A stretch of 64,000 nucleotides of DNA from positions 124,322-188,321 of the forward strand of contig NZ_LMQS01000005.1 in NCBI RefSeq assembly GCF_001424665.1. Direction: 5' to 3'. The DNA is from Methylophilus sp. Leaf416 (GTDB lineage: Bacteria; Pseudomonadota; Gammaproteobacteria; Burkholderiales; Methylophilaceae). The first letter of the stretch is position 1. The number at the start of each line of letters is the position of its first letter. The notes below the pieces were generated by a model. The model made no database searches. It was not told where the DNA came from and saw only the letters and a list, made by a program, of their open reading frames with translations. A program made the position numbers and the translations under genes. Positions 12,309 to 54,398 of the stretch are shown piece by piece.

Positions 12309-13310
12309 ATGTTTAAGAAAAGCTTCAAATACGGGTTAGCGGTTCTGGGGTCATGCGGACTGGCGCTCACGCTCTGGCTAGTCATTTATATGATACGGCC
12401 ATTGCCTATGGTTTCTGAAACCATAGGCTTGCAGATTCCCGCCGGCGCCAGTGTGCGCGGCATTGCAGACCAACTGGTGTCGGCAGGGGTGTTGAAAGAG
12501 CCTTATAGTTTCCTGGCGGTGGTCAAACTGACAGGGAGCGGCAGCCGACTTCAGGCCGGTGATTATGCTTTAAATGCGCCTTTGCAAGTGCTGGGCCTGA
12601 TTGACGTACTCAAGCATGGCACATTTAATCAGCTTAAACTTCAGTTGACTGAAGGCAAGACCTTTAGCGACTTCAGGCAGAAGCTGGCGCAAATGCCTGG
12701 CATACGGCATGAGACACAACATTTATCTGATAGTGAGTTAATGGAACTGGTTAGCGGTGAAGCCAAGCCTCCTGAAGGCTGGTTTTTTCCGGACACCTAT
12801 TTTATTGACAAGCAAAGCAGTGATACGGAAATGTATAAGCGTGCTTACCAGAAAATGACGCAGTATTTATCTGCTGCGTGGGAGACACGTCAATCCGGCT
12901 TGCCTTATAAAACGCCATACGAAGCACTGATCATGGCCTCCATCGTTGAGAAAGAAACTGGCGTTGAAGTGGAGCGTCCGCAAATCGCCGGTGTGTTTGT
13001 CAATCGTTTGCGGCTGGGCATGCGTTTGCAGACTGACCCGACCGTGATTTATGGCATGGGCAGCCGGTATCGTGGCAATATCACGCGACGGGATTTACTG
13101 ACGGATACCGCTTTCAATACTTATACGCGCAGTGGCTTACCGCCAACGCCAATTGCTTTGCCAGGCCTGGCGTCTATTCAAGCGGCATTACATCCCGCCA
13201 ATACCAAGGCGTTGTATTTCGTGGCAAACGGGCAGGGCAGGCATGTATTTACCAGTACGCTGGAAGACCATAACAAGGCCGTGCGCGCCTATCAATTAAA
13301 GAAACACTAA
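12309..13310 (+). CDS. mltG: Endolytic murein transglycosylase MltG (YceG family)
   Basis: 333 residues; single N-terminal membrane anchor (residues about 9-31), then a periplasmic YceG/LysM-like domain that cleaves nascent glycan strands and so ends peptidoglycan polymerisation. Diagnostic blocks: GWFFPDTYF, the catalytic Glu in MASIVEKETG, RLRLGMRLQTDPTVIYG and YTRSGLPPTPI. It sits 21 bp after pabC in the standard operon. Confidence 0.94.
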   Translation: MFKKSFKYGLAVLGSCGLALTLWLVIYMIRPLPMVSETIGLQIPAGASVRGIADQLVSAGVLKEPYSFLAVVKLTGSGSRLQAGDYALNAPLQVLGLIDVLKHGTFNQLKLQLTEGKTFSDFRQKLAQMPGIRHETQHLSDSELMELVSGEAKPPEGWFFPDTYFIDKQSSDTEMYKRAYQKMTQYLSAAWETRQSGLPYKTPYEALIMASIVEKETGVEVERPQIAGVFVNRLRLGMRLQTDPTVIYGMGSRYRGNITRRDLLTDTAFNTYTRSGLPPTPIALPGLASIQAALHPANTKALYFVANGQGRHVFTSTLEDHNKAVRAYQLKKH

Positions 13311-28010: not shown

Positions 28011-28057
28011 TGTTTCAATGGCAACAGTCTGTTCTGGCAAGTGTTGAAATTTAAACA
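28011..28057 (+). promoter_or_regulatory. Two upstream activator sites, TGTT-N8-AACA
   Basis: TGTTTCAATGGCAACA (28011) and TGTTGAAATTTAAACA (28042), starts 31 bp apart. Centres lie 169.5 and 138.5 bp before the -24 element, close to 16 and 13 helical turns. The same pair, with the same 31-bp spacing, occurs before the gene at 39408. Confidence 0.72.
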
Positions 28058-34447: not shown

Positions 34448-34732
34448 ATGTCTCACATCACGGAAAATAATAAAAAACTTGGCCTGCGCATTAACCGTAT
34501 CAAAGGTCAAATCGATGCGCTGGAAAAGTCACTGTATAACGGTGTGGCATGCGCTAATTTTCTGCACCAGGTTGCCTCCGTGCGTGGCGCAATTGACGGT
34601 TTGATGTCTGAAGCGCTGGAAGGGCATATCCGCGAGCATCTGGGGTATGCACATCAAGGCGATGAAGCCGGACACAATCATCAGGAAGATCTCGACGAAG
34701 TAATCAATGTGCTAAAGACGTATTTGAAATAA
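34448..34732 (+). CDS. RcnR/FrmR-type (CsoR family) metal-sensing repressor
   Basis: 94 residues, all-helical CsoR/RcnR-family repressor that binds G/C-tract operators as a tetramer and releases DNA on binding metal or formaldehyde. Signature RINRIKGQIDALEKSL. His3, Cys35, His60 and His64 match the Ni/Co ligands of E. coli RcnR; FrmR has Glu at 64, so the metal-type set is favoured. The C-terminal HQGDE...DLDEVINVLKTYLK also resembles RcnR. An in-frame ATG at 34400 is inside the terminator and is rejected. No exporter gene lies next to it; targets may be elsewhere in the window (ATAGG-N7-CCTAT sites). Confidence 0.9.
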   Translation: MSHITENNKKLGLRINRIKGQIDALEKSLYNGVACANFLHQVASVRGAIDGLMSEALEGHIREHLGYAHQGDEAGHNHQEDLDEVINVLKTYLK

Positions 34733-35010: not shown

Positions 35011-36801
35011 ATGACATCGTTAAAAAATTCTCTCATACGTTTGACTACTCCCAAATTTCTGCTGGCATGTATCTGCCTATTGTTATCCACTACCAGCCAG
35101 GCCGAAGTCGCGGCAAATATTTTTTCAATGGCGCTTGTGGATCATACAATAACCCAGCCCATCCCTGTATATCCCGCAGAATCGCTTAAATCCCGAGAAG
35201 ATGGTATCACGGTACTCAAGGTCCTGGTTGCAGCCTCAGGCGAAGTGAAAGAGATTGCCGTAGAAAAATCCAGCAATCACAAAAACCTGGATCAAGCCGC
35301 ACTGGAAGGTGTAAAGCAATGGAAGTTCATTCCCAAGCAGGCCCATGGTGTAGCCGTGGAAGACTGGGTCAGTGTCTCCATCTGCTTCTCCGGAAAAGAA
35401 GTGGTGGTACTTACTCCCAAACAAATCAACAAGCGCTATTGGGTCAAAGACCAAAACGGCTGCAAACTATTTGATAACTATTTGCAGCAATTGGCAAAGT
35501 ATGAATGGAATGGAGAGTGTCAAAACGGCTTTATAGAAGGCGCTGGCGAGGTCATCGCTGTGTACGAAGGAAAGACTGTCAATAAACTCAAAGGAACGTT
35601 CCATAAAGGATTGCTGTATGGTGAGGCTTATGCGCAGACGCTGGATAGCGAATTTAACGGTATGTTTGTACATGGCCTTAAAAATGGAAAAGGAACCCTG
35701 GTATGGAATTATGGCATGCGCTATGAAGGAGATTTCCTTAACAGCTTAATGAATGGCCATGCAATCATTTCCTGGCCAAATGGCGTAAGAGTCGAGGGTG
35801 AGTTTGACAAGGGAAATCCCGTCGGTAATAAATTTACCCCACCCAGGTTCACACATAGGGCGCGTCTCAAATTTCCGGAAACTTTGGCTGGCTTCCACAA
35901 AAGCGGGGCCGTCACCTTGCAGGCTTTGGTGGATGAAAAAGGCGAGATTTCCCAGATTGAGGTAATAAGGTCCGATCACCCGGCTTTTGAAAGAGAAGTA
36001 TTTAAAGTGGTAGCTTCATCAGAAATAAAACCGGCGATGGTTAACGGGAAAGCTGTGCCTTCTTTATTCAGATACCCCTTCAGGTTTGGTTCGAATAGTG
36101 AGGATAACAAGCCTTACAGTATAGGTCTCGATCCTGAAGTTGAAACCACTGGAGATGTCCCGGAGCAGGTCAAGCTGGATGCTTTGCCTACCTTTAAAGT
36201 TGTTGCACCGCTGGTTTATCCGTTTGAATTGTTCCAAAAAAAAGTGACGGGAAAAGTGGCGGCGACAGTGCTGATTGATCCTACTGGCCATCCGGCGGAC
36301 ATCAATATAACAGAAGCCAGTCACCAGGATTTTGCAGCGGCGACACGGGCGATGCTGGCTTCATGCGTGTTCACTCCGGCTATCAAGGAGCAGGTAGGGG
36401 CATGGGCTAGCCTGAAGATAGGGTATGAATTTTCCAGGAATAGCAAGGATACGCTTTACGACAGCGATGTTTACCGGATATTGCGGCACTCTAAAGAAGT
36501 CAAAGCACCTGTTTACAAACTCGCACACCTGGACCAAAAACCGCAAGCGATTTATTCACCTGTTGCAGAATTGCCTTATGGTTATGAGGTTAAAAGTGCT
36601 GAAAAAGTGCTGGTGGAATTCACCATCGATAAAAATGGGGCGGTGCAGTTACCACATATACTCAAATCTACTAACCCTGAGCTGGACTGGCTCGCCATGA
36701 CCACCGTCTCACGCTGGTTTTTCAAACCTCCTACTGTTAAGGGTGAGCCGGTGGATGTGTTGGTAAGTATTCCGGTAATCTACTCGGCAGCCAATAATTA
36801 A
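35011..36801 (+). CDS. Exported protein with four TonB_C-like domains and inserted MORN repeats
   Basis: 596 residues. Signal peptide (ends near SQA, residue 31). TonB C-terminal-like domain 1 at about 50-135 (TVLKVLVAASGEVKEIAVEKSS, QAALEGVKQWKFIP), MORN repeats at about 165-275 (YEGDFLNSLMNGHAIISWPNG), then three further TonB_C-like units near 290-365, 395-480 and 510-590. No membrane anchor and no Pro-rich spanner, so it is not a normal TonB; it may bind TonB boxes or cell-wall material in the periplasm. Neither sigma-54 nor activator sites were seen upstream. Function unknown. Confidence 0.8.
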   Translation: MTSLKNSLIRLTTPKFLLACICLLLSTTSQAEVAANIFSMALVDHTITQPIPVYPAESLKSREDGITVLKVLVAASGEVKEIAVEKSSNHKNLDQAALEGVKQWKFIPKQAHGVAVEDWVSVSICFSGKEVVVLTPKQINKRYWVKDQNGCKLFDNYLQQLAKYEWNGECQNGFIEGAGEVIAVYEGKTVNKLKGTFHKGLLYGEAYAQTLDSEFNGMFVHGLKNGKGTLVWNYGMRYEGDFLNSLMNGHAIISWPNGVRVEGEFDKGNPVGNKFTPPRFTHRARLKFPETLAGFHKSGAVTLQALVDEKGEISQIEVIRSDHPAFEREVFKVVASSEIKPAMVNGKAVPSLFRYPFRFGSNSEDNKPYSIGLDPEVETTGDVPEQVKLDALPTFKVVAPLVYPFELFQKKVTGKVAATVLIDPTGHPADINITEASHQDFAAATRAMLASCVFTPAIKEQVGAWASLKIGYEFSRNSKDTLYDSDVYRILRHSKEVKAPVYKLAHLDQKPQAIYSPVAELPYGYEVKSAEKVLVEFTIDKNGAVQLPHILKSTNPELDWLAMTTVSRWFFKPPTVKGEPVDVLVSIPVIYSAANN

Positions 36802-36942
36802 ACAGCATTTTTTAGCTTTTCCGGTATTTGGCTGCTTCATGGCGAGCAATTGTTAGAAAAATGTGTATATAACAGCACATGCTTTTTGTCTGCTTACCAT
36901 TTTTATCGGCTAACTATTTGATTTCAATCATATGTCAGGAAT

Positions 36943-36957
36943 GGGCATAACTCCTGT
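36943..36957 (+). promoter_or_regulatory. Weak sigma-54-like element
   Basis: GGGCAT-N5-CTGT: the GG is present but -12 reads GT. It has the right distance to the ATAGG-N7-CCTAT palindrome for the arrangement seen at two other promoters. No TGTT-N8-AACA site was found upstream. Candidate only. Confidence 0.25.
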
Positions 36958-36972
36958 TATGTAAATCCCCTG

Positions 36973-36989
36973 ATAGGGAAGCCCCCTAT
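36973..36989. promoter_or_regulatory. Operator-like palindrome ATAGG-N7-CCTAT (copy 1)
   Basis: ATAGGGAAGCCCCCTAT, with flanking G and C extending the arms to six. It lies 51 bp before the broken receptor gene. Same arms and spacing as the copies at 41984, 48040 and 48061. Confidence 0.65.
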
Positions 36990-37040
36990 CCATTATTATC
37001 GTCGTCGCTTTTGTCTTAACGAAATAAATAAGGGATTTAG

Positions 37041-39125
37041 ATGTATAAGAAGAATAATGGCTGGTGCTGGTTGATGGCACTATTGGCGACCGCATGGACA
37101 ACTTCCGTAAATGCTGAAGCCAAAGATACATTACCGGCCATTGAAGTCAGAGCCGAAATCCATGCATTGATTGGGGTTGCGGATTCTGCTTCAGATGGAA
37201 AAGTGACTGAAAAGCAGTTGGCACACCGGCCATTCCTGCGTCCGGGTGAAGTGCTGGAAACCGTGCCGGGACTCATCGTGACGCAGCATTCTGGTGATGG
37301 CAAGGCCAACCAGTATTTCCTGCGCGGCTTTAATCTGGATCATGGCAGTGACTTTGCTACTTATGTGAACGGTATGCCTATCAATATGGTCAGCCATGCT
37401 CACGGCCAGGGCTATATGGACCTTAATTTCCTGATTCCGGAACTGATAGGAGGCCTGCGTTACCAGAAAGGCCCATATGCCGCTGAAGATGGGGATTTTA
37501 ATACCACTGGTTCGGCGCGTATCCAGTACAAACGCTCGCTCAAAACGCCTTTCGCAGCATTGACCGTTGGTGAATACCAGTACCAGCGTTTTTTGACAGC
37601 CGGAAGTGCCGAGTGGAACGGCCGCCAGCTGTTGGGTGCTGCTGAACTGGTTGGGTATGATGGCCCTTGGGACCAGTCGCAAAACCTGAACAAGGTCAAT
37701 CTGCATGGCAGTATCAGTGAAGGGACAGCCAGTGACGGTTACATCATTACTGCCATGGCCTATAAAAGCACCTGGGTAGCCAGCGAGCATGTACCGCAAC
37801 GGGCCATTGATAGCGGCGAGATTGGCCGCTTTGGTACATTGGTTCCCAATGATGGCGGCAAAACTCATCGCATCAGTTTGTCAGGTGAATGGAACCAGAG
37901 TGATGAGCATTCTTACCGGAAAATCAATGCCTGGGTGATCGACTATGGCTTAAACCTTTTCAGCGCACCATCAGGTTATATCAATGGCCCTGATGGCGAC
38001 CAGCATGAGCAGGAAGATCACAGGATTCTGTTTGGCGGCCAGGCCGAAAAGCATTGGTTATTACCTGAGGGCTGGTTTAATACCGAAGTGATTGCCGGTG
38101 CGCAGTTGCGCCATGACCGCATCGGAGCTCTGGGTTTGTATGACACCGTCAATCGTGTGCGTACCAATACAGTCAGTCAAAATAAGGTTAACCAGACCGG
38201 CAGCGCTCTTTATACTGAACTGAAAACGCCTTGGTTATCTTGGCTGCGCACTAATGTCGGCTTACGGTATGACACCATTTCTGCCGATGTAAATGCCCGT
38301 GGCGGCCAATTCAACCTGGCGAATGGCGGCAGTGAGACTGCACATCAGGTCAGCCCTAAGTTGGGTTTAGCGATTGCACCATTCAATTAACTTGAATTTT
38401 ATGCTAACTGGGGCCGCGGTTTCCATAGTAATGATATCCGTGGTGCCGTCATCACCAATAATGCAGTTGATGGCTTGCCAGCCGAGCGGGTGCCATTACT
38501 CGCCAAAAGTACAGGCGGTGAATTAGGACTGCGTGCAGCACCATTTGAAGGTTGGCAAACAGCATTGGCAGTGTGGCAGGTAAAATCTGCTTCCGAATTG
38601 GTGTTTGTTGGCGACGAAGGAATCACTGAACCACGCGGTAGTTCACATCGCTACGGGGTTGAGTGGACTAACCATCTGACTTTGTCAGATTATTTCTTCC
38701 TGGATGCCGATCTGGCGTTATCAAAAGCCAGGTTTGACCGCGAAGAAAACGGTGGCCGTCATGTGCCTAACGCTATCCCGGTAAGTGCATCGCTGGCGGC
38801 TAACTATGATGATGGCAGCCATTGGTCCGGCGGCATCAGGGTACGTTATATCGGTTCTTATGCATTGGAAGAAACCGGTACGCAAACATCATCTTCATTT
38901 TTGACAGCAAACGCCAGGCTGGACTATCAATTCAACCCACACTGGCAACTGTCTGCCAGCATCCTTAATCTGTTGAATCGCAAGGCAAATGACATCGAGT
39001 ATTGGGGCGGCGCCTGCTCGCGTCAGGATGGGGCAGGTTGCGGCGGTGGACAGGGCATTGATGGACGTCTGGTTCATCCGCTGGAACCACGCACATTACG
39101 CGTAGGTTTGCGCTACAACTTTTAA
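37041..39125 (+). pseudogene. TonB-dependent receptor interrupted by in-frame TAA
   Basis: One frame of 695 codons encodes a normal-length receptor, but codon 450 (38388-38390) is TAA; the barrel continues in the same frame straight after it (APFN, stop, LEFYANWGRGFHSND). Signal peptide ends near VNA; plug (LRPGEVLETVPGLIVTQHSGDGKANQYFLRGF, MVSHAHGQGYMDLNFLIPEL) and the final aromatic strand (LRVGLRYNF) are intact. It lacks a clear sigma-54 promoter but has an ATAGG-N7-CCTAT palindrome upstream. The truncated product lacks the last third of the barrel and should not fold. Whether this is a real mutation, a sequencing error or read-through cannot be settled from one sequence. Confidence 0.88.
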
Positions 39126-39135
39126 GACTAATGAT

Positions 39136-39182
39136 TGTTTCTAATGCAACATGCTGATACGGCAACTGTTGCATAGTAAACA
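39136..39182 (+). promoter_or_regulatory. Two upstream activator sites, TGTT-N8-AACA
   Basis: TGTTTCTAATGCAACA (39136) and TGTTGCATAGTAAACA (39167), starts 31 bp apart. Centres lie 167.5 and 136.5 bp before the -24 element (about 16 and 13 turns). Confidence 0.75.
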
Positions 39183-39200
39183 GCCTGGTAAATCCCTTTG

Positions 39201-39227
39201 AATGGCACGTGATTAACGTGCCATTTT
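39201..39227 (+). terminator. Hairpin terminator after the broken receptor
   Basis: Stem AATGGCACGT / ACGTGCCATT with a short loop followed by TTTCATTTT. It ends the receptor unit before the next sigma-54 promoter. Confidence 0.75.
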
Positions 39228-39310
39228 CATTTTATAAAATTCCTTTTTAGATCAATTGATTAGATAGAAAAACTCCAGGCCTGAAGCTAGTCATCCCACA
39301 CTTCAAAAGC

Positions 39311-39325
39311 TGGCACGCAGGTTGC
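39311..39325 (+). promoter_or_regulatory. Consensus sigma-54 promoter
   Basis: TGGCACG-N4-TTGC followed by A, a full match to the classical consensus, 83 bp before the ATG of the rhodanese-gluconolactonase gene. The best sigma-54 site in the window. Confidence 0.88.
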
Positions 39326-39407
39326 AATAGTAATGGCCGATATCGCATGTCATGGTCACGGCTATGCATGTATTGCATCACTCTGTTAGACCTATAAAAG
39401 GATTACA

Positions 39408-40760
39408 ATGAAAAAAATTCATCTGGTAGTGGCTTCACTATTTCTTTCTGCGGCAACGTTATCTTATGCCGGCGGTGTAAGTAACACTGGCGCAACAAAT
39501 ACTGCACCAGCCAATACACAAGAAGCGAAAAAACCACCTATCTCAAAAAAACTGGATAAAGCGGATGTGGATGCCATCCTTGCCAAACCTAGCGACTACG
39601 TGCTGATCGATCTTCGTCGCCCTGATGAGCTGATCAAGATTGGCGGCTTTCCTGTATACCTGAACATCCAGTCCAAAGAACTTGAACAGTACCTGGATTA
39701 CATCCCTAAAGATAAACAGATCGCTACTATTTCCAACCATGCCGGTCGAGCCCATGCAGCTGCTGATTTGCTGATTGGGAAAGGCTACAAAGTAGTGGGT
39801 GCGATTGGCGTGCAGGATTACGAAGCACAGGGCGGTGCACTGACTCGCATCACACCGCCAACGCCGAAGTATGAAGTAAATGCCGATATTCCTGGCGTAG
39901 TCGCCAAAGGCACGAAATACGAGTTTCTTTATGAAGGTTTTGAAGGCACTGAAGGTCCTATCACTTTGCCTGACGGTTCGGCGATCTTTACTGAAACTCG
40001 CGCCAACCGCATTACACAATTAAAAGAAGACCGTGGTGTTTCGATTTTCCTGCAGAACAGTAACGGTTCTAATGGCCTGGCATTTACACCAAAGGGTGAC
40101 CTGATCTCGGTGCAAAACCTGAAACCGCAAGTAGGTATCGTTTATCCGGCCGGCCATGAAAAAGTGCTGTCTAACAACTTTGAGGGCAAACCTTTCCAGC
40201 GTCCGAATGATTTGGTGCTGGACAAAAAAGGCGGAATTTACTTCACTGACATCGGTGTGATACCCAAGCCTGAAGAAAAAGATGCGGAAGCAGCCCGCCC
40301 TGCTGTTTACTACATCACGCCTGATGGGAAAACTACCCGTGTTATCAATGACCTCAAGCGTCCTAACGGTGTACAGTTGAGCACAGACGAAAAAGTATTG
40401 TACGTGGCTGATACTGCCAACCAATTCCTGATCGCCTACGACATCAAGGCTGATGGCTCATTGTCCAACAAGCGTGATTTCGCCAAGCTGGATGGTTACC
40501 AGAAAAACCCGGCAGGTGAGTTTGCCAGTGGTGCAGATGGTATTGCGATTGACGCTGAAAACCGTGTCTATGTGGCTACCAACTCCGGTGTAGAGGTATT
40601 TTCTGCCAAAGGTGAGAAGCTGGGTATTATTGCTTTGCCTAACAAACCACAGAATTTGGCTTTTGCCGGCAAGGACAAGAAAACCCTGGTGGTAGTTGGC
40701 CGTGGCGCCGCTTACCGTATCCCATTGCTGGCGCAAGGCTTCCTTGGCCGCGCTAAATAA
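39408..40760 (+). CDS. Exported rhodanese-like / SMP-30-gluconolactonase fusion
   Basis: 450 residues. Signal peptide (ends SYA, residue 21), rhodanese-like domain (about 47-150; VLIDLRRPDEL, then ISNHAGRAHAAADLL where the catalytic cysteine should be, so it is probably inactive), then a six-bladed SGL beta-propeller (about 175-445) with metal-binding-type motifs EGPITLPDGSAIF, RPNDLVLDKKGGIYFTD, RPNGVQLSTDEKVLYVAD and GADGIAIDAENRVYVAT. Possibly a periplasmic lactonase. Fusion of these two domains is uncommon. Driven by a consensus sigma-54 promoter, with the dienelactone hydrolase 31 bp downstream in the same operon. Confidence 0.87.
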   Translation: MKKIHLVVASLFLSAATLSYAGGVSNTGATNTAPANTQEAKKPPISKKLDKADVDAILAKPSDYVLIDLRRPDELIKIGGFPVYLNIQSKELEQYLDYIPKDKQIATISNHAGRAHAAADLLIGKGYKVVGAIGVQDYEAQGGALTRITPPTPKYEVNADIPGVVAKGTKYEFLYEGFEGTEGPITLPDGSAIFTETRANRITQLKEDRGVSIFLQNSNGSNGLAFTPKGDLISVQNLKPQVGIVYPAGHEKVLSNNFEGKPFQRPNDLVLDKKGGIYFTDIGVIPKPEEKDAEAARPAVYYITPDGKTTRVINDLKRPNGVQLSTDEKVLYVADTANQFLIAYDIKADGSLSNKRDFAKLDGYQKNPAGEFASGADGIAIDAENRVYVATNSGVEVFSAKGEKLGIIALPNKPQNLAFAGKDKKTLVVVGRGAAYRIPLLAQGFLGRAK

Positions 40761-40791
40761 CCATTGATCACTGACATTACGGAGAATTTGA

Positions 40792-41679
40792 ATGACGCAA
40801 AAAACAGCGAAGGATTTTCATCCGGAAGTATTGGGGCTGTTTGAAAAGTTTGTGCACGGGGATATCAGTCGGCGTGACTTTCTGAACCAGGCTGGTAAAT
40901 ATACAGTTGCTGGGGTGACTGCCAGCGGCCTGCTGGCGGCTTTGACGCCCAAATTTGCCCAGGCCAGGCAAGTCGAAGAGTCTGATGTGCGGATCAAGGC
41001 AGAGTACATTGAAATTGATTCGCCCAATGGTTACGGCAAAGTGCGCGGCTATCTGGTCACGCCTGCCAATGCCAAAGGCAAGTTGCCGACTGTGCTGGTT
41101 GTGCATGAAAACCGCGGCTTGAACCCGCATATTGAAGATATCGCGCGCCGTCTGGCTGTGGATGGCTTTATCGCATTTGCCCCTGATGCCTTATTCCCGC
41201 TCGGTGGATATCCTGGCGATGAAGACAAGGCGCGTGAACTTTTCCAGAAGCTGGACCAGGCTAAAAGCCGTGAAGATTTTATTGCCTCAGCGACTGCACT
41301 GAAAAAACTGCCGCAAGGTAATGGCAAAGTTGGCGTGGTCGGCTTTTGTTATGGCGGCGGTATTTCCAATTTCCTGGCGACTAAAGTCTCCGATCTTGGG
41401 GCAGCCGTTCCTTTCTATGGTGGGCAGCCTGCTGATGAAGAAGTCGCCAAAATCAAGGCGCCTTTATTGCTGCATTATGCAGGCCAGGATGAACGCATCA
41501 ATGCTGGTTGGCCTAAATATGAGGCCGCACTAAAAGCCGCAAAAGTGAATTATCAGGCGTTTATTTACCCTGATGTCCAGCATGGTTTCAATAACGATAC
41601 AACGCCGCGATACGACGCGGAAGCTGCAAAGTTAGCCTGGGGAAGGACGGTGCAGTTTTTCCGTCAACACCTGGCCTGA
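40792..41679 (+). CDS. Dienelactone hydrolase family protein with Tat-like signal
   Basis: 295 residues, alpha/beta hydrolase of the DLH type. Nucleophile segment GFCYGGG (Cys), VLVVHENRGLNPHIEDIARRLA, and the late Asp and His (AGQDERINAGW, HGFNNDT) complete the triad. Residues about 27-58 (SRRDFLNQAGKYTVAGVTASGLLAAL) look like a Tat signal placed after a short N-terminal extension, so the enzyme is likely periplasmic. Together with the upstream SGL protein it suggests lactone or ester hydrolysis outside the cytoplasm. Confidence 0.85.
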   Translation: MTQKTAKDFHPEVLGLFEKFVHGDISRRDFLNQAGKYTVAGVTASGLLAALTPKFAQARQVEESDVRIKAEYIEIDSPNGYGKVRGYLVTPANAKGKLPTVLVVHENRGLNPHIEDIARRLAVDGFIAFAPDALFPLGGYPGDEDKARELFQKLDQAKSREDFIASATALKKLPQGNGKVGVVGFCYGGGISNFLATKVSDLGAAVPFYGGQPADEEVAKIKAPLLLHYAGQDERINAGWPKYEAALKAAKVNYQAFIYPDVQHGFNNDTTPRYDAEAAKLAWGRTVQFFRQHLA

Positions 41680-41849
41680 CTATCTCCCCGCAGCAATTAA
41701 GCTGACATCAGTAAATTGCTGCAATCTCTGTGTATGTTATGCCCTGATTAAATCCCTCTTTAATGGGGGCAGGGCGTAGCATACCTTTCTTTTTTGTAGT
41801 CCTTCTATTTTCACTCATTGCTGGGTAATCAACACCCTCTCGAGCCATT

Positions 41850-41865
41850 TGTTGCGCAGGCAACA
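41850..41865 (+). promoter_or_regulatory. Upstream activator site, TGTT-N8-AACA
   Basis: TGTTGCGCAGGCAACA, with arms TGTTGC / GCAACA perfectly palindromic. Centre 104.5 bp before the -24 element (10 turns). Confidence 0.75.
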
Positions 41866-41961
41866 GCCGCTTCCTGGTATCACCATCAATCATTGTGCGG
41901 TTTGTTGATAAATCATATATAAATCATATACTTAAATAAGTATTTTGCTTGGGCTAATAGA

Positions 41962-41976
41962 TGGCATGGAGTCTGC
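41962..41976 (+). promoter_or_regulatory. Sigma-54 promoter of the DUF6644-like operon
   Basis: TGGCAT-N5-CTGC with correct GG/GC spacing. Confidence 0.65.
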
Positions 41977-41983
41977 TACAGCC

Positions 41984-42000
41984 ATAGGGGATAAGCCTAT
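41984..42000. promoter_or_regulatory. Operator-like palindrome ATAGG-N7-CCTAT (copy 2)
   Basis: ATAGGGGATAAGCCTAT, beginning 8 bp after the -12 element and so covering the expected transcription start, a typical repressor position. Confidence 0.68.
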
Positions 42001-42084
42001 AAAAACAAGTATTGAAGCGGATGATAGCTACTAAATACTGAGATTTGGGCCTAATCGTATCAGCTACTATTTTTAGGGACATTC

Positions 42085-42594
42085 ATGACCATTATTCAAT
42101 TTCTACAAATTCTGCATGACTCAGAGTTTGGTACCAGTGTGCGCGAATCACTATATCTGTTTCCGTTGCTGGAAGGCATTCATTTGATCGGGCTGGCACT
42201 ATCGTTGGGCTTGATTATAGCAACTGATCTACGGCTGATTGGGGTATTCCTCAAGCAAGTGCCCGTCAATGAAGTGCTACATAATTTCAGGCCTTATGTA
42301 TTGGTGGGTTTCCTGATCACCTTTGTCACCGGCATTATTTTGTTATGGGCTGAAGGCCCGCGTATCTGGGAAATACCGGTTTTCCCACTCAAACTGGCAC
42401 TCATTGTGGTCGCCGGTTTCAATGCACTTTGGTTTGAACTGAAGTTTGGCAGGACTGTACAAGTATGGGGTCAGCAGGCTCAATTTCCGGCAGGCGCCAA
42501 GCTGGCAGGCTGGGTTTCGCTGATTTCATGGAGCGGCGTCGTTATATTGGGGCGGTTGATTCCATACCTTGAAGCAACCCAATCCAGATTCTAA
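42085..42594 (+). CDS. Small membrane protein (DUF6644-like)
   Basis: 169 residues, four to five predicted membrane helices (for example LEGIHLIGLALSLGLIIATDLRLIG, then YVLVGFLITFVTGIILL). The histidine in EGIHLIG and the LRLIG motif recur in the next protein (QLFHILGFLLILTAVLIVNLRLIG), so the two are paralogous or form a pair. No known function; conserved histidines in membrane helices could bind metal or heme. First gene of a sigma-54-type operon. Confidence 0.72.
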   Translation: MTIIQFLQILHDSEFGTSVRESLYLFPLLEGIHLIGLALSLGLIIATDLRLIGVFLKQVPVNEVLHNFRPYVLVGFLITFVTGIILLWAEGPRIWEIPVFPLKLALIVVAGFNALWFELKFGRTVQVWGQQAQFPAGAKLAGWVSLISWSGVVILGRLIPYLEATQSRF

Positions 42595-42619
42595 TCTAAG
42601 TAATTGCGAGAACCAGATC

Positions 42620-43096
42620 ATGACCACAGAAGCTTTTTTTAATGAACTACAAACCAATCAGGTAAGCCTGTATATTTCGCAGTTGAATGCATTTGCCGGT
42701 GCAGTTGCACAACTATTTCATATACTGGGATTCCTGCTGATTTTAACTGCCGTATTAATCGTAAACCTGCGCCTGATTGGGTTTGGATTGCGCAAGCAAC
42801 CCATCCCTTATCTGGCTAAAGTCACTAATCCCTTGATCCTGGCTGGATTGGTACTGGTTGCCATATCCGGCTTGTTTATTCTTCTGCCGAGCGCGTCATT
42901 GTATTACCCGAATCCTGCATTCTGGCTGAAGTTCTATCTGCTGGCCGCGGTGCTGGTAGTGCATTTCACGATCACAAGGCTGGTGACGCGTAAAGAGAAT
43001 CCAAAACCTGTGGTCGCAATATCCGCAGCAACACTGAGCCTCACCCTGTGGTTTGGGGTTGCATTTGCAGGACGTGCAATCGGTTTTTTGAATTAG
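42620..43096 (+). CDS. Small membrane protein, partner of the preceding one
   Basis: 158 residues from ATG 42620 (an upstream in-frame ATG at 42569 lies inside the previous gene). Four membrane helices, sharing the H...LRLIG helix with the gene before it. Followed 31 bp later by a c'-like lipoprotein, which suggests a membrane-bound redox or metal function for the three genes. Function unknown. Confidence 0.72.
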   Translation: MTTEAFFNELQTNQVSLYISQLNAFAGAVAQLFHILGFLLILTAVLIVNLRLIGFGLRKQPIPYLAKVTNPLILAGLVLVAISGLFILLPSASLYYPNPAFWLKFYLLAAVLVVHFTITRLVTRKENPKPVVAISAATLSLTLWFGVAFAGRAIGFLN

Positions 43097-43127
43097 ACTT
43101 CAATCGCAATAGAAAGCAAGTTTATAC

Positions 43128-43742
43128 ATGAATGTAAAGGTAGTGTTTTTAACCACGTTTTATCTGGTGATTACTGCGTGCAGTAAACAAACAACAGAAA
43201 TTCCGGACGGAATCAAGCCATTTGGCACCTTGCAGGAGCTGATGCTTTCGGTGATTGACCCTCATGTGGACCCTATCTGGAATTCCGTCTCCACTACGGT
43301 CACAAAAGAGGGGGTTGAGGAAAAAGCACCTGCTACAGATGCAGAGTGGGCTGTACTCAGGCAGCATGCCATTGCGTTGATAGAGGCAGGTAATTTATTG
43401 CAGATCCCTGACCGGCAGGTTGCGGTGACCGGGGCCAGTACTTCCATACACCCTGTTGAAGAAGACCCCAAAAAGATTGAGGAGCTTATCCGCAATAATC
43501 ACGCTGATTTTGCCTTAAAAGCTCAGGGGCTACAGGAAGCAACCAAAATTGCGCTAATCGCAATTGATGAGAAAAATCCTGAGGCTTTGCTTAAAGCTGG
43601 CGAGGGTATAGAAAAAGCTTGTGAAGCTTGCCACTCTGCCTATTGGTACCCGAATGATAAGCGCCCTGTTTCATGGAAGCCATTAGGTCAGGCTGAGTCA
43701 GGGCTATTCGCACGTTTAATCAAGCTTGCAGATGTAAGTTAG
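43128..43742 (+). CDS. c-type cytochrome lipoprotein (cytochrome c'-like)
   Basis: 204 residues. Lipoprotein signal with lipobox VITAC (Cys18) and one heme motif CEACH near the C-terminus (EKACEACHSAYWYP), preceded by helices as in the cytochrome c' bundle. Likely anchored to the inner or outer membrane. Last gene of the DUF6644-like operon, followed by a strong terminator. Could carry electrons to the two membrane proteins before it. Confidence 0.82.
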   Translation: MNVKVVFLTTFYLVITACSKQTTEIPDGIKPFGTLQELMLSVIDPHVDPIWNSVSTTVTKEGVEEKAPATDAEWAVLRQHAIALIEAGNLLQIPDRQVAVTGASTSIHPVEEDPKKIEELIRNNHADFALKAQGLQEATKIALIAIDEKNPEALLKAGEGIEKACEACHSAYWYPNDKRPVSWKPLGQAESGLFARLIKLADVS

Positions 43743-43760
43743 CAATTCACTGATTGGCTC

Positions 43761-43806
43761 AACCGGAATAGCTTCTGCTTTTTCAGAAGGCTATTCCGGT
43801 TTTTTT
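43761..43806 (+). terminator. Strong rho-independent terminator
   Basis: Long stem AACCGGAATAGCcTTCTG / CAGAAGGCTATTCCGGTT (small mismatch) and a T7 run. Confidence 0.92.
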
Positions 43807-43856
43807 GTTTCAGCTAAACTCATTGATGAACCCACTGTTAAAGCGGAGTCAATACC

Positions 43857-44429
43857 ATGTCAAAAAATATCGTGGATGCCAATTACCGGTTTATTTCTGC
43901 TTCGCAAGAGGTCAATGCCCGCATTACGCAACGGCAGCAGGCCCTGACCCTGTATGTGACGCTGACAGTCAGTTTGCTTGCAGCCCTGGTGGCACTTAAA
44001 CCTTCTGGTGTAGCGAGTGACCCTTTACCAATAGAATGGTTGGTGCTTGGATTCCCCGTGGCTTCCACTAGTCTTGCATTCCTGGATTACAAATCAGAAC
44101 GAGCAATTACCAATCTGCGCCGTTTCCTGTCCGAGCTTGAGAGGCTGGATAATGCCCATACGCATATGCCAAGCTATAACACTGACCCGAAATGGGCGAT
44201 GGGGGCCAATAAGGCCCGCCGCTTTCATGATTATGCTGCGGCAGTGTTAGTAGCAGGCGGAAATGCCATAGGCTTGGGCGCGTTTGTCAGTATTTATCCG
44301 GAGCAGATTGTTGAGCATCCGGCTATGATATTTATTGCGATAGCAGGGGCGATAGGGTCTTTAATCGCTTTGCTGTGGATTCCCAAATGGAGTTATATTC
44401 CTTCTGAGTTGCGCCGCAATCATTATTAG
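43857..44429 (+). CDS. Membrane protein of unknown function
   Basis: 190 residues with four predicted membrane helices (ALTLYVTLTVSLLAALVAL, LVLGFPVASTSLAFLDY, AAAVLVAGGNAIGLGAFVSI, MIFIAIAGAIGSLIALLWI) and a charged central loop (about 85-125). No family recognised. It stands alone between a terminator and the convergent PepSY gene. Confidence 0.7.
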   Translation: MSKNIVDANYRFISASQEVNARITQRQQALTLYVTLTVSLLAALVALKPSGVASDPLPIEWLVLGFPVASTSLAFLDYKSERAITNLRRFLSELERLDNAHTHMPSYNTDPKWAMGANKARRFHDYAAAVLVAGGNAIGLGAFVSIYPEQIVEHPAMIFIAIAGAIGSLIALLWIPKWSYIPSELRRNHY

Positions 44430-44431
44430 GT

Positions 44432-45850
44432 TTAACGCTGCAATGACAAACGTTTAAAGCCATAGTAAAGGCCAGTCAGACTAATAGTCAGCCCGGCGAT
44501 AGATAGCAGAATAATTAACAACCTGCGCCAGAATTGCGGTTCAATCCCTGGGAAGTTCCATGTGTGCAGTGCCGTAAACAGCCATCGATAAGATCGGCTA
44601 CGTGTATCCTGGCTGGAAACGATTTCCCCTGTGACTGCATTGATGTAATAGCTCACATTAGAATCACACGCAAAACTGGCACGCGCGATAGGAAGGTGCT
44701 TGTTATGCGTTGTGTAATAGGCGTCTCCTTGTTCAGGGAGCCATTCGATAGATGTCAGAGATGCTGTTTGTAAATCCCTGACAGCTGCCTGTAATTGTTG
44801 CAGTGTGTATGCTGGCAATGCATTGCCGCTCACCGGCTCTAGCCTTTGGGTCTTATCTAAATGATGGCTAATGACACCTACCTTTCCCGAAAATGAGGTC
44901 CATTCAAGGAGTTTTGTCTCGGCCGAAAAATGGTCTGGTAGTCGGTAATCATCTAAAGAAACCGGCTGGCCTTGCCAGTTATGTAATTCTTGATCGGATA
45001 AACTGCGGTCAGACAGCCAGTTCATCGGTGTCATCGAAAGCCAGCCGCTGAATAACCAGGTAAATAAAATCAACCCCAGTGTATAACCCGCAACATGATG
45101 TATACGCATAAGGCCGCGATAGGGGGTATGTCGATTTCGGCTATAACGTGAAGCCAGCCGCATTCTTAATATGCCTATCCAGATGCCAATCGCCGATAAC
45201 GCAATAGCAAAACCGGCGGGCCATAAAATCACTTGCCGCCAGACCTCTCTGTTAGCGCGCAACTCTGTGAAGTAAACCCAGTGGGTGATTGAACCCAGCC
45301 AGTTCCAGAATCTTTCATGCCGGCTGGTTTCAAGCACTATTTGTCCGGTGCGGCTGGAGATATATATTTCGGACTTGTTTTCGTCATTCAGCGAGACTTT
45401 ATAAAGCGGGCGATGGGGATTCAGCCTGCCGGAAAAAGACCACTGATCAAGTGCAATCAAACTCACTTTACTAACGTGTTCCGCCGGTTGGAAAGCCAGT
45501 GCATTTCGGATAGCCATCTCACGATCAATGAAAACTCTACTCGCGGAGTCGGCCCAGACCGCACGCCAGTGATCTGTTAAAAAATAGTATACCGGTCGGC
45601 TTTGTTGCATCTCCAGCTGGATTTTTATTGGAGTTGTCTCTAGAGATTGTCCAGAAATTGAATGCCAGGCGGTTTCGGGTGAAACCTTTACCAAATCGCG
45701 CTGTAATGTCTGCAGGTGACCCAGCTGTTCTTCATTTGTGAGAGAGGGATAGCTGACAAATAACATCACTACCCCGGATAACAGCCAGAGCACGACGAGT
45801 GGGCCAAGAATAAGGCCCAGCCATCGATGGGTAAGATACAGATATCGCAC
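44432..45850 (-). CDS. PepSY-associated TM-helix protein (possible siderophore-iron reductase)
   Basis: 472 residues with four to five membrane helices: an N-terminal one in HRWLGLILGPLVVLWLLSGVVML, others near 205 and 255, and a C-terminal one. Periplasmic PepSY segments lie between them (KVSLNDENKSEIYISSRTGQIV, YINAVTGEIVSSQDT). Proteins of this build are commonly encoded next to TonB-dependent siderophore receptors, and some (FoxB/PiuB type) act in siderophore reduction. It is 20 bp downstream of such a receptor, in one operon. Confidence 0.85.
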   Translation of the reverse strand: MRYLYLTHRWLGLILGPLVVLWLLSGVVMLFVSYPSLTNEEQLGHLQTLQRDLVKVSPETAWHSISGQSLETTPIKIQLEMQQSRPVYYFLTDHWRAVWADSASRVFIDREMAIRNALAFQPAEHVSKVSLIALDQWSFSGRLNPHRPLYKVSLNDENKSEIYISSRTGQIVLETSRHERFWNWLGSITHWVYFTELRANREVWRQVILWPAGFAIALSAIGIWIGILRMRLASRYSRNRHTPYRGLMRIHHVAGYTLGLILFTWLFSGWLSMTPMNWLSDRSLSDQELHNWQGQPVSLDDYRLPDHFSAETKLLEWTSFSGKVGVISHHLDKTQRLEPVSGNALPAYTLQQLQAAVRDLQTASLTSIEWLPEQGDAYYTTHNKHLPIARASFACDSNVSYYINAVTGEIVSSQDTRSRSYRWLFTALHTWNFPGIEPQFWRRLLIILLSIAGLTISLTGLYYGFKRLSLQR

Positions 45851-45870
45851 AACTAACTCAAGATGCTTGC

Positions 45871-48003
45871 TTAAAAGTTAAACTCGCCCCTAATTTCGGC
45901 ACGGCGAGATTCACCAATGAGAAACTGCTCGGTATCGTAAGAGACAGCCGCATAAAGCTTGTTGGTCAAATTGCGGATGCTGCCACGCAGTGTGACATTT
46001 TTATTAATGTGCCAAGCTACATTAGCGTCATAAACGGTATAGCCAGGCAATTTTGTCGTATTTGCATTATTCGAATAACGTTCACCAACGAAACGTGCAC
46101 CTAGTCCGGCTTGCCACAATGGTTGCTGGTAATAGACCCACGCATTAGCTCCACGCTCCGGAACATCAACTGGGGTGTTGCCTGCACGCGAAATACCCGC
46201 ACTACCTTCACGCAATTCGTCATATTGAGCATCCAGAATAGCAAGGTTAAAGTCTGTGCGCCAATGATCAAGCGGTAATAATGAAGCAGAAAACTCTATG
46301 CCCCTGGATGATTGCTTGCCCCCCTGTACCGTCTGCGTTGGGTTGCTGGGATCACGCGTGAGAATATCATCCTTGCTGATATCGTAGATAGCCACAGTAA
46401 ACTCGCCTTTTCGATTATCGAGCACATGCTTGATACCAATTTCAGCCTGCTCTGCCGAGGTAAGTTTAAAGTTGCGATTGTTTGAACGTGTGCTAACAAT
46501 CGTAGAGACAGGGTCAGAACCTTGACTCCATTGACCATATAGTGATGTGTTCGGTGAGAACAGGTAAGTAGCACCCAGACGGAATGAGAAGGGAGAGAAC
46601 TGCTTGTTGTAATCAGTGGTTCTGTAAGGAAGGGTGGCAGTATGATCAAGGTCGATCCAGTCTTGGCGAAGACCTGCACTTAAGGTTAGGTCAGGCGTAA
46701 TGCGAAAAGCGTCTTCTACGAACAAGGCTTGTTGCACTGTCTTGGAGGTAAATTCCTTTAGCGTTGGGTCTATGGTTTGAAACAAGCCAGGATTGCTGTT
46801 GCTAATATCAACCGTACTACTCGGGTCATTGCCCAAGTAGAAGTTGTCAAAATACTGGAAATCAACTCGAGCAACTTCATAGCCAATAGACCATTTGTTT
46901 TCATGATTCCAAAGCTCACTCGTGCCGGCGAGAATAGTCTGGTTACCCAGTTGCCTTTGTTTGTGCTGTATCTCGGTATAAGTGTTCCTGTCGACGGTAT
47001 TAGGAGTAGCGCCTAAAGCGTACAATTCAACTCCACGCCAATGCCTGCGTGAGTTAAACCAGTAGGCTGTGTTAGTAAGTTTCAGAGAGTCTGAAATATC
47101 CCAGTCCAACTTGGCTTTCAATCTGTCATCCAGGAATTCTTGAATAGCATTGTCTACATTGTAATTCTCGTCACGCAGCTCACTTTTAATCCGGCCATTC
47201 TTTAATGGGATGCCAGTGTAATTCATAGGATTTTCATCACTATGATCATAGATAAAGTTCAGCTTGAGCGTATCACTTGGCTTGATCTCAAAATTAGTCA
47301 TTAACTTGTGACTGTAATAACGTCCATCATCCACATGTCCCTGACCGCCCGAAGCCGATGCATCAATACGTACGGCCCCCACTTCACCCACCGGTGCTGT
47401 ACCGCCTATCCCTAAACGATAGGCTCCTTGTGTGCCACCACTTACCAGGCCTTGCAATGAAAATTCACGACTAGGTGCTTTGCGGATGCTGTTCACAATG
47501 CCGCCGACTGAAGCGTCACCGAACAATACTGATGCCGGGCCACGCAATACTTCGAATCTTTCATAGCCCCAACTATCGGAGGGGTAGGTGATGGTCGTAG
47601 CCGCGACTAGCAAACGTATCCCATCTTCTGCTTGAGCTACAGAGTTATTGCCGGTGAAGCCACGGGCAGAGTAAGCAACACCGGTGCCCAGGTTGCTAAT
47701 ATCTGTGAAACCTGTAGTTCGGGAAACAGCTTCGCGTATGCTGAAATCGCCACGAAGTTTCACTGTTTCGGCATCCAGTGTTTCAACACTGGCGGGTGTT
47801 TCCAAATTGGTTAATCCAAGGCGGCTACCAGTACTGGTTTTCGCTTTCAAATTAATAGACGACTCTTGTTCTTGTTTACCTTTCACTTCTACAGCGGGTA
47901 ACTCCTCTTCAGCAGCCATTGCTTGTTGAAATTCTGTTAAAGCTGCCAGTGATAAAAATAATGCAGATAAATACGAATATGAGGGCTTAGCTCGGCGTGA
48001 CAT
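45871..48003 (-). CDS. TonB-dependent siderophore-type receptor
   Basis: 710 residues. Signal peptide (ends near AMA, residue 30), TonB-box-like ELPAVEVKG, plug (GSRLGLTNLETPASVETLDAE; FEVLRGPASVLFGDASVGGIVN) and barrel ending in the canonical aromatic FNF. The layout is of the TIGR01783 siderophore-receptor class. Cotranscribed with the PepSY protein. Its upstream region holds a sigma-54 promoter, two activator sites and two ATAGG-N7-CCTAT palindromes; no Fur-box-like sequence was obvious. Confidence 0.93.
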   Translation of the reverse strand: MSRRAKPSYSYLSALFLSLAALTEFQQAMAAEEELPAVEVKGKQEQESSINLKAKTSTGSRLGLTNLETPASVETLDAETVKLRGDFSIREAVSRTTGFTDISNLGTGVAYSARGFTGNNSVAQAEDGIRLLVAATTITYPSDSWGYERFEVLRGPASVLFGDASVGGIVNSIRKAPSREFSLQGLVSGGTQGAYRLGIGGTAPVGEVGAVRIDASASGGQGHVDDGRYYSHKLMTNFEIKPSDTLKLNFIYDHSDENPMNYTGIPLKNGRIKSELRDENYNVDNAIQEFLDDRLKAKLDWDISDSLKLTNTAYWFNSRRHWRGVELYALGATPNTVDRNTYTEIQHKQRQLGNQTILAGTSELWNHENKWSIGYEVARVDFQYFDNFYLGNDPSSTVDISNSNPGLFQTIDPTLKEFTSKTVQQALFVEDAFRITPDLTLSAGLRQDWIDLDHTATLPYRTTDYNKQFSPFSFRLGATYLFSPNTSLYGQWSQGSDPVSTIVSTRSNNRNFKLTSAEQAEIGIKHVLDNRKGEFTVAIYDISKDDILTRDPSNPTQTVQGGKQSSRGIEFSASLLPLDHWRTDFNLAILDAQYDELREGSAGISRAGNTPVDVPERGANAWVYYQQPLWQAGLGARFVGERYSNNANTTKLPGYTVYDANVAWHINKNVTLRGSIRNLTNKLYAAVSYDTEQFLIGESRRAEIRGEFNF

Positions 48004-48039
48004 GAATCAATTCTTTCTAGTTATAAATACAGTTATTTT

Positions 48040-48056
48040 ATAGGGGGGTGGCCTAT
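48040..48056. promoter_or_regulatory. Operator-like palindrome ATAGG-N7-CCTAT (copy 3)
   Basis: ATAGGGGGGTGGCCTAT, with a G6 tract as in operators of the CsoR/RcnR/FrmR family. Exactly 21 bp (two turns) from copy 4. Confidence 0.68.
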
Positions 48057-48060
48057 ATAA

Positions 48061-48077
48061 ATAGGGGAGGCGCCTAT
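48061..48077. promoter_or_regulatory. Operator-like palindrome ATAGG-N7-CCTAT (copy 4)
   Basis: ATAGGGGAGGCGCCTAT, 15 bp beyond the -12 element of the minus-strand sigma-54 promoter, just downstream of the expected start of the receptor transcript. Confidence 0.68.
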
Positions 48078-48092
48078 AGTACCCGATTCATA

Positions 48093-48107
48093 GCAGAATG
48101 TGTGCCA
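48093..48107 (-). promoter_or_regulatory. Sigma-54 promoter of the siderophore-type receptor
   Basis: On the minus strand: TGGCAC-N5-CTGC with correct -24/-12 spacing, about 90 bp before the ATG at 48003. Confidence 0.68.
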
Positions 48108-48172
48108 TCTTATTAAAAACTCTTTTAATCAATGGCTTGTATGATTTTCGCTTTTTATTTTAATGTTGCCTC

Positions 48173-48220
48173 TGTTGATTTTGCAGCAATTGACTATTGA
48201 GAACTGTTGCAGCGCAAGCA
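48173..48220. promoter_or_regulatory. Two upstream activator sites, variant TGTT-N8-RGCA/AGCA
   Basis: TGTTGATTTTGCAGCA (48173) and TGTTGCAGCGCAAGCA (48205), each one base off in the right half-site. Centres are 73.5 and 105.5 bp from the minus-strand -24 element (7 and 10 turns). Confidence 0.6.
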
Positions 48221-48345: not shown

Positions 48346-49461
48346 ATGGCGAGAAATGATCGTGACAATGCGGGCGAGGGAGTATGGACAGCATCCGAGT
48401 TTGATGAAAACCTTTCGGGAGAGGACAAGATTGTTCTTTTTCCCAATCCACAACGTTTAAGTTTATCCGTTAGAGCAAGCGCACTTATTTATTCTGATGA
48501 GAAATCCAAGCAGTTACTTTCTTTGATTGAAAAGGTAGCGCCAAGTGATGCTACTGCTTTGATCAAAGGTGAAACTGGCACGGGCAAGGAGTTGGTAGCA
48601 AGACACATCCATAATTTAAGCCCAAGAAAAGCGGGCCCATTTGCGGCCATCAATTGCGGTGCCTTTTCAGAAACATTGGTTGAAAGTGAATTATTCGGTT
48701 ACGAGCGAGGTGCGTTTACCGGCGCCGTCGGTTCCAAAAAAGGATGGTTCGAGACTGCCAACGGCGGGACCTTATTCCTGGATGAAATCGGAGATTTACC
48801 TCTCTCCACCCAGGTGAAGTTGCTCAGGGTTTTACAGGAGCGTGAAGTGACGCCGATAGGTTCCCGAAAACCGGTTCCAATTGATGTGCGGCTGATAGCT
48901 GCGACCAATGTGAACCTGGTGGAAGCCGTGAATGCAGGCAGGTTCAGGGAAGACTTGTACTACCGGATTAAAGTGGTCCCCATTGAGATCCCGCCTTTGC
49001 GAGATCGTAAGGGGGATATTTTGCCTCTGGTTGAACATTTTCTGGAGGTCTATCGCAATCGCTTGCATACGGTGAAGCCGCAGCTGACATCAGACACAAT
49101 TAAATTGATGAATGATTATCCATGGCCGGGAAATATCCGTGAACTGGAAAATGTCATTCACCGGGCATTACTGGTGTGCGACGGCAAATTGCTGAAGCCA
49201 TCGGATTTGAACTTGCCAAGTTTGCAAAGTCTTGCAGGCTCCGGGGTAAGCAATAGTTTGTCACTTGAAGATCAGATGGATGCTTTGCTGAGTGAATATT
49301 TCAAACTGGAGCCAGATGAATTGCTTGAGAATTGCGTTAAAAGAATAGTGCTCAAAGCTTATGAATATTCACACCAGAACCAAGTGCAAACGGCGCGGGT
49401 GCTGGGGATTAGCCGTAATGTGTTAAGGGCTTATTTAAAGCAATACGGGATTATCCAGTAA
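48346..49461 (+). CDS. Sigma-54-dependent enhancer-binding activator without sensory domain (SfnR-like build)
   Basis: 371 residues. Only about 45 residues precede the AAA+ domain (about 45-290), so there is no receiver, PAS, GAF or V4R domain. Walker A GETGTGKE, the sigma-54 contact loop GAFTGA (ESELFGYERGAFTGA), Walker B GGTLFLDEIGDL and the R-finger region REDLYYRIKVVPI are intact. The C-terminal Fis-type helix-turn-helix (VQTARVLGISRNVLRAYLKQYG) binds DNA. Activators of this build (PspF, SfnR) are controlled by abundance or a partner protein. It lies among six sigma-54-type promoters with shared upstream sites and is their best candidate regulator. Followed by a terminator. Confidence 0.93.
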   Translation: MARNDRDNAGEGVWTASEFDENLSGEDKIVLFPNPQRLSLSVRASALIYSDEKSKQLLSLIEKVAPSDATALIKGETGTGKELVARHIHNLSPRKAGPFAAINCGAFSETLVESELFGYERGAFTGAVGSKKGWFETANGGTLFLDEIGDLPLSTQVKLLRVLQEREVTPIGSRKPVPIDVRLIAATNVNLVEAVNAGRFREDLYYRIKVVPIEIPPLRDRKGDILPLVEHFLEVYRNRLHTVKPQLTSDTIKLMNDYPWPGNIRELENVIHRALLVCDGKLLKPSDLNLPSLQSLAGSGVSNSLSLEDQMDALLSEYFKLEPDELLENCVKRIVLKAYEYSHQNQVQTARVLGISRNVLRAYLKQYGIIQ

Positions 49462-54254: not shown

Positions 54255-54270
54255 TGTTTCCACAGCAACA
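54255..54270 (+). promoter_or_regulatory. Upstream activator site, TGTT-N8-AACA
   Basis: TGTTTCCACAGCAACA; centre 136.5 bp before the -24 element, exactly 13 turns. A degenerate half-site (TGTTG) follows at 54285. Confidence 0.72.
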
Positions 54271-54398
54271 ATCGCTAAAGATTATGTTGGGTGAGATGCA
54301 GTATTTTTAAATTTACAAAGATATTATTTTATTAAAATGAAAAATAAATTTCAATAAAATCAAATAGATAAAAGATTATATAACAGCATTCTTTTGTA

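Follow-up and report, generated by a model that had tools for sequence, protein, structure and literature searches.

The CsoR/RcnR/FrmR family of regulators (DUF156) is known chiefly as a guard of efflux and detoxification genes, and the members treated in the literature drawn upon here control exporters or detoxification genes (PMC3902906, PMC7055735, PMC5146963; these and the papers cited below are drawn upon in part). RcnR, for example, controls an exporter via type-1 sites of the form TACT-G6-N-AGTA, and its ligands are reported to be the N-terminus, H3, E34, C35, E63 and H64 (PMC7055735). In the published type-2 operators of the family, a gap of about 11 bp separates AT-rich inverted repeats and contains two short G/C tracts with 2-4 bases between them (PMC3902906). 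Here we consider an inverted repeat, ATAGG-N7-CCTAT, that occurs in a stretch of 64,000 nucleotides from Methylophilus sp. Leaf416 (contig NZ_LMQS01000005.1, positions 124,322 to 188,321; hereafter the window). With a probability of roughly 0.7 we take this motif to be the operator of the DUF156 regulator encoded at 34448-34732, because in all eight genomes with a close ortholog the DUF156 gene has a copy no more than 3 kb away and because 18 copies stand ahead of orthologous genes.

Exact matching of the window confirmed the four copies with identical arms and spacing that were reported in a first-pass annotation (Table 1). The expected number was 0.03, and none of 100 shuffles had four or more copies. 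No further copies had been noticed then in the other intergenic regions, and the whole window indeed has no further exact copy; the sole copy with one mismatch is at 12393. The whole genome has six copies compared to eight for the reversed control pattern. Genome-wide, then, the bare pattern shows no enrichment, and it is clustering and orthology that carry the claim. Four of the six copies fall in 11.1 kb of 2.94 Mb, an arrangement whose probability is ~3e-6 by a simple formula and which none of 200,000 simulated placements reproduced; contig ends were left out of account. The two copies outside the window are both coding, one at C1:860785 in a secD-like gene and the other at C2:261816 in an open reading frame (ORF) of 94 amino acids. 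The first-pass annotation had proposed an operator common to three promoters of uptake or redox genes, a proposal that numerous coding copies or a lack of conservation in relatives would have undermined. We found only these two coding copies, and in seven other genomes copies precede orthologous genes. Neither result speaks against the proposal, which we regard as supported, and all four copies in the window do lie just ahead of the genes described.

G/C-rich centres between AT arms are suggestive of the CsoR/RcnR/FrmR (DUF156) family. The gene at 34448-34732 is the only DUF156 gene of the genome; it is 2.2 kb from operator copy 1, and its product scores 69.8 bits with the PF02583 profile against a cut-off of 22.8. 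We found a DUF156 match in 15 of 187 Methylophilaceae genomes, eight at 62-100% identity and seven at 31-53%. In all eight genomes with close orthologs the nearest motif copy is 0.15-3.0 kb from the DUF156 gene, and no other gene was seen to accompany the sites in every one of them. In the seven genomes with the more distant homologs any motif copy is on another contig (several of these are draft genomes). In an order-level sample of 399 genomes, no DUF156 match outside Methylophilaceae exceeded 51% identity.

The eight genomes contain 27 motif copies. Besides the 18 that were used, one is inside an RND gene (G142) and eight are elsewhere: two in this genome (G000), four in G136 (one of them at a distance of 34 kb from DUF156) and one each in G142 and G200, with the coding status checked for the G000 pair only. 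The 18 copies precede a TonB-dependent receptor, here called receptor A (in 7/7 genomes with a true ortholog), an operon of DUF6644-like membrane proteins and a cytochrome (five genomes), a CrtA-like receptor (four genomes, five copies) and one further receptor of G199. The fifth CrtA-like copy is the second member of the tandem pair, which among the genomes compared is seen in this genome only. In G200 receptor A is missing, and the interval from DUF156 to the following gene is without a site. Nothing of the island that holds these genes is seen in the annotated stretches of G136 and G142 apart from DUF156, receptor A and the site.

The ATA and TAT arms are 11 bp apart in 18/18 copies, a distance fixed by the search pattern. 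Most centres have two G/C tracts, while some copies at the DUF6644 operon have one long tract. The centres had been called G-rich. This holds in so far as the 18 copies average 63% G+C; on the coding strand, however, C predominates in most of the copies at receptor genes, where the usual form is ATAGG-(G/T)TACCC(A/C)-CCTAT, and G in most of those at the DUF6644 operon. The geometry of the motif fits the type-2 operator class of the family, and the CsoR operators of this type in streptomycetes likewise have AT arms 11 bp apart and two inner G/C tracts (PMC3902906).

The more distant DUF156 relatives, at 45-53% identity, have sites of another kind. In 7 of the 11 loci looked at (3/3 and 4/8) we observed type-1-like sites near the gene. 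The sequence AGTATAC(C/T)CCAGTATAC was beside the approximately 50% identical DUF156 gene in three of three loci, in G138 (L062 ~9889), G157 (L063 ~2547) and G005 (L040 ~6923), and TACT-G-tract-AGTA or a similar sequence was within about 50 bp of one end of the gene in four of eight order-level loci (L115, L116, L118, L120). In G138 the neighbour of the DUF156 gene is a cation-efflux gene, and we take the two to be a DmeRF-like pair. The ATAGG-N7-CCTAT motif was absent from the stretches examined around these relatives. Such a distribution suggests that a change of operator went along with the regulator's shift to new targets.

With regard to the signal, all eight close orthologs have H3, C35, H60, E63 and H64, of which C35 and H60 are the conserved Cys (X) and His (Y) of the family, and they have Ser or Ala as residue 2 (start codons were inferred). 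The position of the RcnR ligand Glu34 is Glu in four orthologs, Asp in one and Ala in three. The regulator shares with the Ni(II)/Co(II) sensors RcnR and DmeR both the DUF156 fold family and this set of residues (PMC7055735). It differs from RcnR in that the site is type-2-like and the linked genes are those of receptors and redox proteins, compared to a type-1 operator and an exporter (PMC7055735), and its score of 80.3 bits is below the NCBIfam equivalog cut-off of 138 for RcnR.

The best match among solved structures is the formaldehyde sensor FrmR (8.6e-17), and conceivably the signal that DUF156 senses, while still binding the motif, is formaldehyde or a persulfide and not a metal. Methylotrophs produce formaldehyde. 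In addition, sulfonate-type ABC transporter genes are near orthologs of the sigma-54 activator of the island in three of the five relatives examined (G136, G022 and G103, but not G155 and G204), and in G210 the DUF6644 operon is near an alkanesulfonate monooxygenase. On the other hand, formaldehyde sensing requires Pro2 together with Cys35, and the Cys residues that CstR employs are those of positions X and Z (PMC5146963). Pro2 is missing in 8/8 orthologs, which have His at positions 3, 60 and 64, and the NCBIfam FrmR score is 87 against a cut-off of 133. An FrmR given His at position 64 responds to cobalt and zinc (PMC4528141). We rejected formaldehyde sensing, since Pro2 is missing, and consider a formaldehyde or persulfide signal as a whole unlikely. 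Residues H3, C35, H60 and H64 favour a Ni/Co-type sensor over a formaldehyde sensor. With less certainty than for the operator itself, we infer a transition metal as the ligand; a Ni/Co-type sensor would be the likeliest, with Zn or Cu possible.

Linkage is no proof of binding, and there are many regulators elsewhere in these genomes, so that another, unlinked transcription factor might bind the motif. In that case both the match between motif and DUF156 (8/8 close-ortholog genomes versus 0/7 of the others) and the family-type geometry would be a coincidence, which makes this explanation rather improbable.

We then consider the promoters at which the motif is placed. Sigma-54 elements were scored out of 12 against the consensus GG-N10-GC, TGGCAC-N5-TTGCW. 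Elements with a score of at least 9 were found at a nearly fixed offset in 14/17 promoters, compared to 155 of 3,000 background windows. Upstream, a TGTTGC-N4-GCAACA-like palindrome with a score of at least 10/12 was present in 13/17 promoters (background 51/2000), and matches formed a pair 30-34 bp apart in 14/17; these scores are partly circular, as the palindrome consensus was read from the same promoters that were later scored. A perfect IHF-like site was found in 10/17 promoters (33 of 3,400 shuffles). A first scan with a strict sigma-54 pattern and a GTTGC palindrome had missed most elements, and the criteria were relaxed. No consistent sigma-70 element was seen at the sites. Similar paired palindromes, mostly about 30 bp apart, are also at 39136-39182, 28011-28057 and 54255-54300, upstream of sigma-54 promoters of the island.

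In the 16/16 promoters tested the motif spans +2..+21 at the receptors and -5..+13 at the DUF6644 operon, with +1 set by convention. A repressor bound there, over the predicted start, would block promoter opening or escape. Other promoters of the island (those of an SGL hydrolase in five genomes, the receptors at 28250 and 54465, cytochrome b561 and TonB) mostly have sigma-54 and enhancer-like elements as well, while the motif was in none of the 17 other island promoters tested, in a scan that covered longer stretches and had no background of its own. Since these sigma-54 promoters are without the motif, it would mark a second layer of control.

The sigma-54 activator itself (48346-49461) could be proposed as the protein that binds the motif: its gene shares the island with the motif, which is palindromic and adjoins sigma-54 promoters, and an activator ortholog is present in six of the eight motif genomes. 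We rejected this candidate. The separate TGTTGC-N4-GCAACA-like palindrome, usually paired and about 90-190 bp upstream, is where an enhancer is expected and is likely the (putative) site of the activator. Activator orthologs were found in 37/187 genomes (E 1e-100), six of which also have a close DUF156. The remaining 31 comprise 15 genomes that lack the motif altogether, 13 whose copies are all on different contigs or 142 kb or more distant, and three without a copy within about 10 kb. Conversely, G142 and G210 have the motif and no activator at E 1e-100, and several island promoters have sigma-54 and enhancer-like elements without the motif. Together these observations make binding of the motif by the activator very improbable. 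The sulfonate-type genes mentioned above suggest that the activator answers to sulfur supply, which would be an SfnR-like layout. Least probable of all is a role of the motif in RNA as a hairpin at the 5' end of transcripts: the receptor-gene copies do fall within the transcript as predicted, at roughly +2..+21, but the copy of the DUF6644 operon begins at -5 or -4, which would leave part of its 5' arm untranscribed. The arms are also invariant in 18 copies without compensatory changes, a weak argument since the copies were found by that very pattern.

Among the targets, receptor A has paralogs that are 42-48% identical to it, the NikR-linked receptors of Methylophilaceae. In the 23 paralog loci examined, a nikR-like gene was within about 1.5 kb in 12 and a hupE-like gene in three (15/23 linked), and in G200 a paralog is beside urease genes. 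The motif was in 0/23 of these loci, and no linkage to nickel genes was seen for the motif-bearing receptor A orthologs. NikR was discarded as a candidate for the regulator, being absent from the eight DUF156 genomes at E 0.001; urease is present in six of the eight. Receptor A of this genome may be decaying, for the gene is interrupted and the promoter is weak (sigma-54 element 7/12, no palindrome above 7/12), though the operator and the IHF-like site are intact.

The CrtA-like receptor has a full-length match (5e-91) to CrtA (BfrG) of Bordetella pertussis (9rvq), a copper importer described in January 2026 (PMC12914433). A PepSY_TM gene follows crtA in more than 75% of crtA loci (PMC12914433), and one follows here too. 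The essential invariant His (H358; PMC12914433) is kept in 4/4 CrtA-like orthologs, but of the conserved site residues Y130, W265, E337, Q356 and R395 (PMC12914433) only E337 was matched in the one alignment made. Copper is a plausible substrate of the receptor and not a settled one, because four of the six ligand-site residues are unmatched. Control would differ as well: crtA is controlled by the upstream ORF CruR (PMC12914433), compared to the proposed DUF156 and sigma-54 here.

Table 1. Coordinates of the candidate operator copies, genes and promoter elements in the window
Feature	Position	Strand	Remarks
Operator copy 1	36973..36989	+	exact match; 51 bp before receptor A; same position in 7/7 genomes with a true receptor ortholog
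Operator copy 2	41984..42000	+	exact match; 84 bp before the DUF6644-like gene pair; kept in G009, G017, G199, G200
Operator copy 3	48061..48077	-	exact match; 57 bp before the CrtA-like (siderophore-type) receptor, over the predicted start; kept in G009, G199, G200
Operator copy 4	48040..48056	-	exact match; 36 bp before the CrtA-like receptor; tandem to copy 3, 21 bp further toward the gene
DUF156 (CsoR/RcnR/FrmR family) regulator, proposed binder	34448..34732	+	Pfam PF02583, 2.7e-19
Receptor A, TonB-dependent	37041..39125	+	full length apart from a single in-frame stop codon, TAA at 38388-38390
Two DUF6644-like membrane proteins and a cytochrome c'-like protein	42085..43742	+	Pfam; first DUF6644 and cytochrome matches just below cut-off
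CrtA-like TonB-dependent receptor	45871..48003	-	phmmer to 9rvq, 5e-91
PepSY_TM protein after the CrtA-like receptor	44432..45850	-	Pfam
Sigma-54 activator (AAA+ domain from residue 48; without a recognised sensor domain)	48346..49461	+	Pfam
Weak sigma-54 -24/-12 element, receptor A	36943..36958	+	7/12, GT instead of GC
Sigma-54 -24/-12 element, DUF6644 operon	41962..41977	+	10/12
Sigma-54 -24/-12 element, CrtA-like receptor	48092..48107	-	10/12
Enhancer-like palindrome pair, DUF6644 operon	41819..41865	.	9 and 12 of 12; offsets -165, -134; exact core at 41851
Enhancer-like palindrome pair, CrtA-like receptor	48173..48220	.	10 and 9 of 12; offsets -111, -143
IHF-like site, receptor A	36911..36923	+	9/9
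IHF-like site, CrtA-like receptor	48127..48139	-	9/9

Taking the motif as the DUF156 operator, we arrive by comparison at the following scheme, in which binding, ligand, polarity and transcription starts are all inferred. The activator, in which no sensor domain was recognised, would switch on the island through sigma-54 promoters, and DUF156, bound over the predicted start sites, would veto the metal-receptor and electron-transfer operons within it. By precedent in the family the metal-free form would repress and metal would release the promoter; for importer targets the opposite polarity, with repression by the metal-bound form, is a live possibility.

Several observations weigh against the assignment of the motif to DUF156. 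The genomes are related, and the co-occurrence counts are not independent. Genome-wide enrichment of the bare pattern, as said, is absent. The inner tracts read GG...CC here, compared to CC...GG in the CsoR operators of streptomycetes, which belong to another branch of regulators (PMC3902906). The sigma-54 score is below 9 at receptor A of G000 (7) and of G136 (8) and at the extra receptor of G199 (7). The diverged DUF6644 operon of G210 is without the motif, as is the operon of the regulator itself, with no copy upstream of HbpS. Finally, control of importers is unusual for the CsoR/RcnR family.

Our broader proposal is tentative, and we would put it somewhat below even odds. In one bacterial family a CsoR/RcnR-family sensor may have been rewired to a new operator and to outer-membrane metal importers. 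By vetoing sigma-54 promoters at their start sites, it would allow an enhancer-driven programme, possibly one of sulfur starvation, to open metal import only when the metal state is right; the logic might even be inverted, with the metal-bound form as the repressor. Comparison ties DUF156 here to nickel- and copper-type TonB-dependent receptors and to a distinct operator. Among open-licence papers we found no system that matches, whether for the sensor family in connection with TonB receptors or with sigma-54 or for Methylotenera in connection with nickel and TonB, and the promoter layout (sigma-54, enhancer-like and IHF-like sites with a sensor site over the start) was likewise not found for this family there. 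The locus raises a testable question, namely whether the CsoR/RcnR family can run importers, and with which metal polarity.

Three minor observations concern the surroundings of the regulator and of the sites. The copy inside the RND efflux gene of G142 (L060:13215) is just upstream of DUF156; it was not counted as an operator and may reflect chance or function. In G199 (L067:5157) the motif is 247 bp before the further TonB receptor, a fifth kind of target, which has no good sigma-54 element. Between the regulator and receptor A, at 35011-36801, this genome encodes a protein of 596 amino acids that had no ORF match in the annotated stretches of relatives and that combines several TonB C-terminal domains with MORN repeats.

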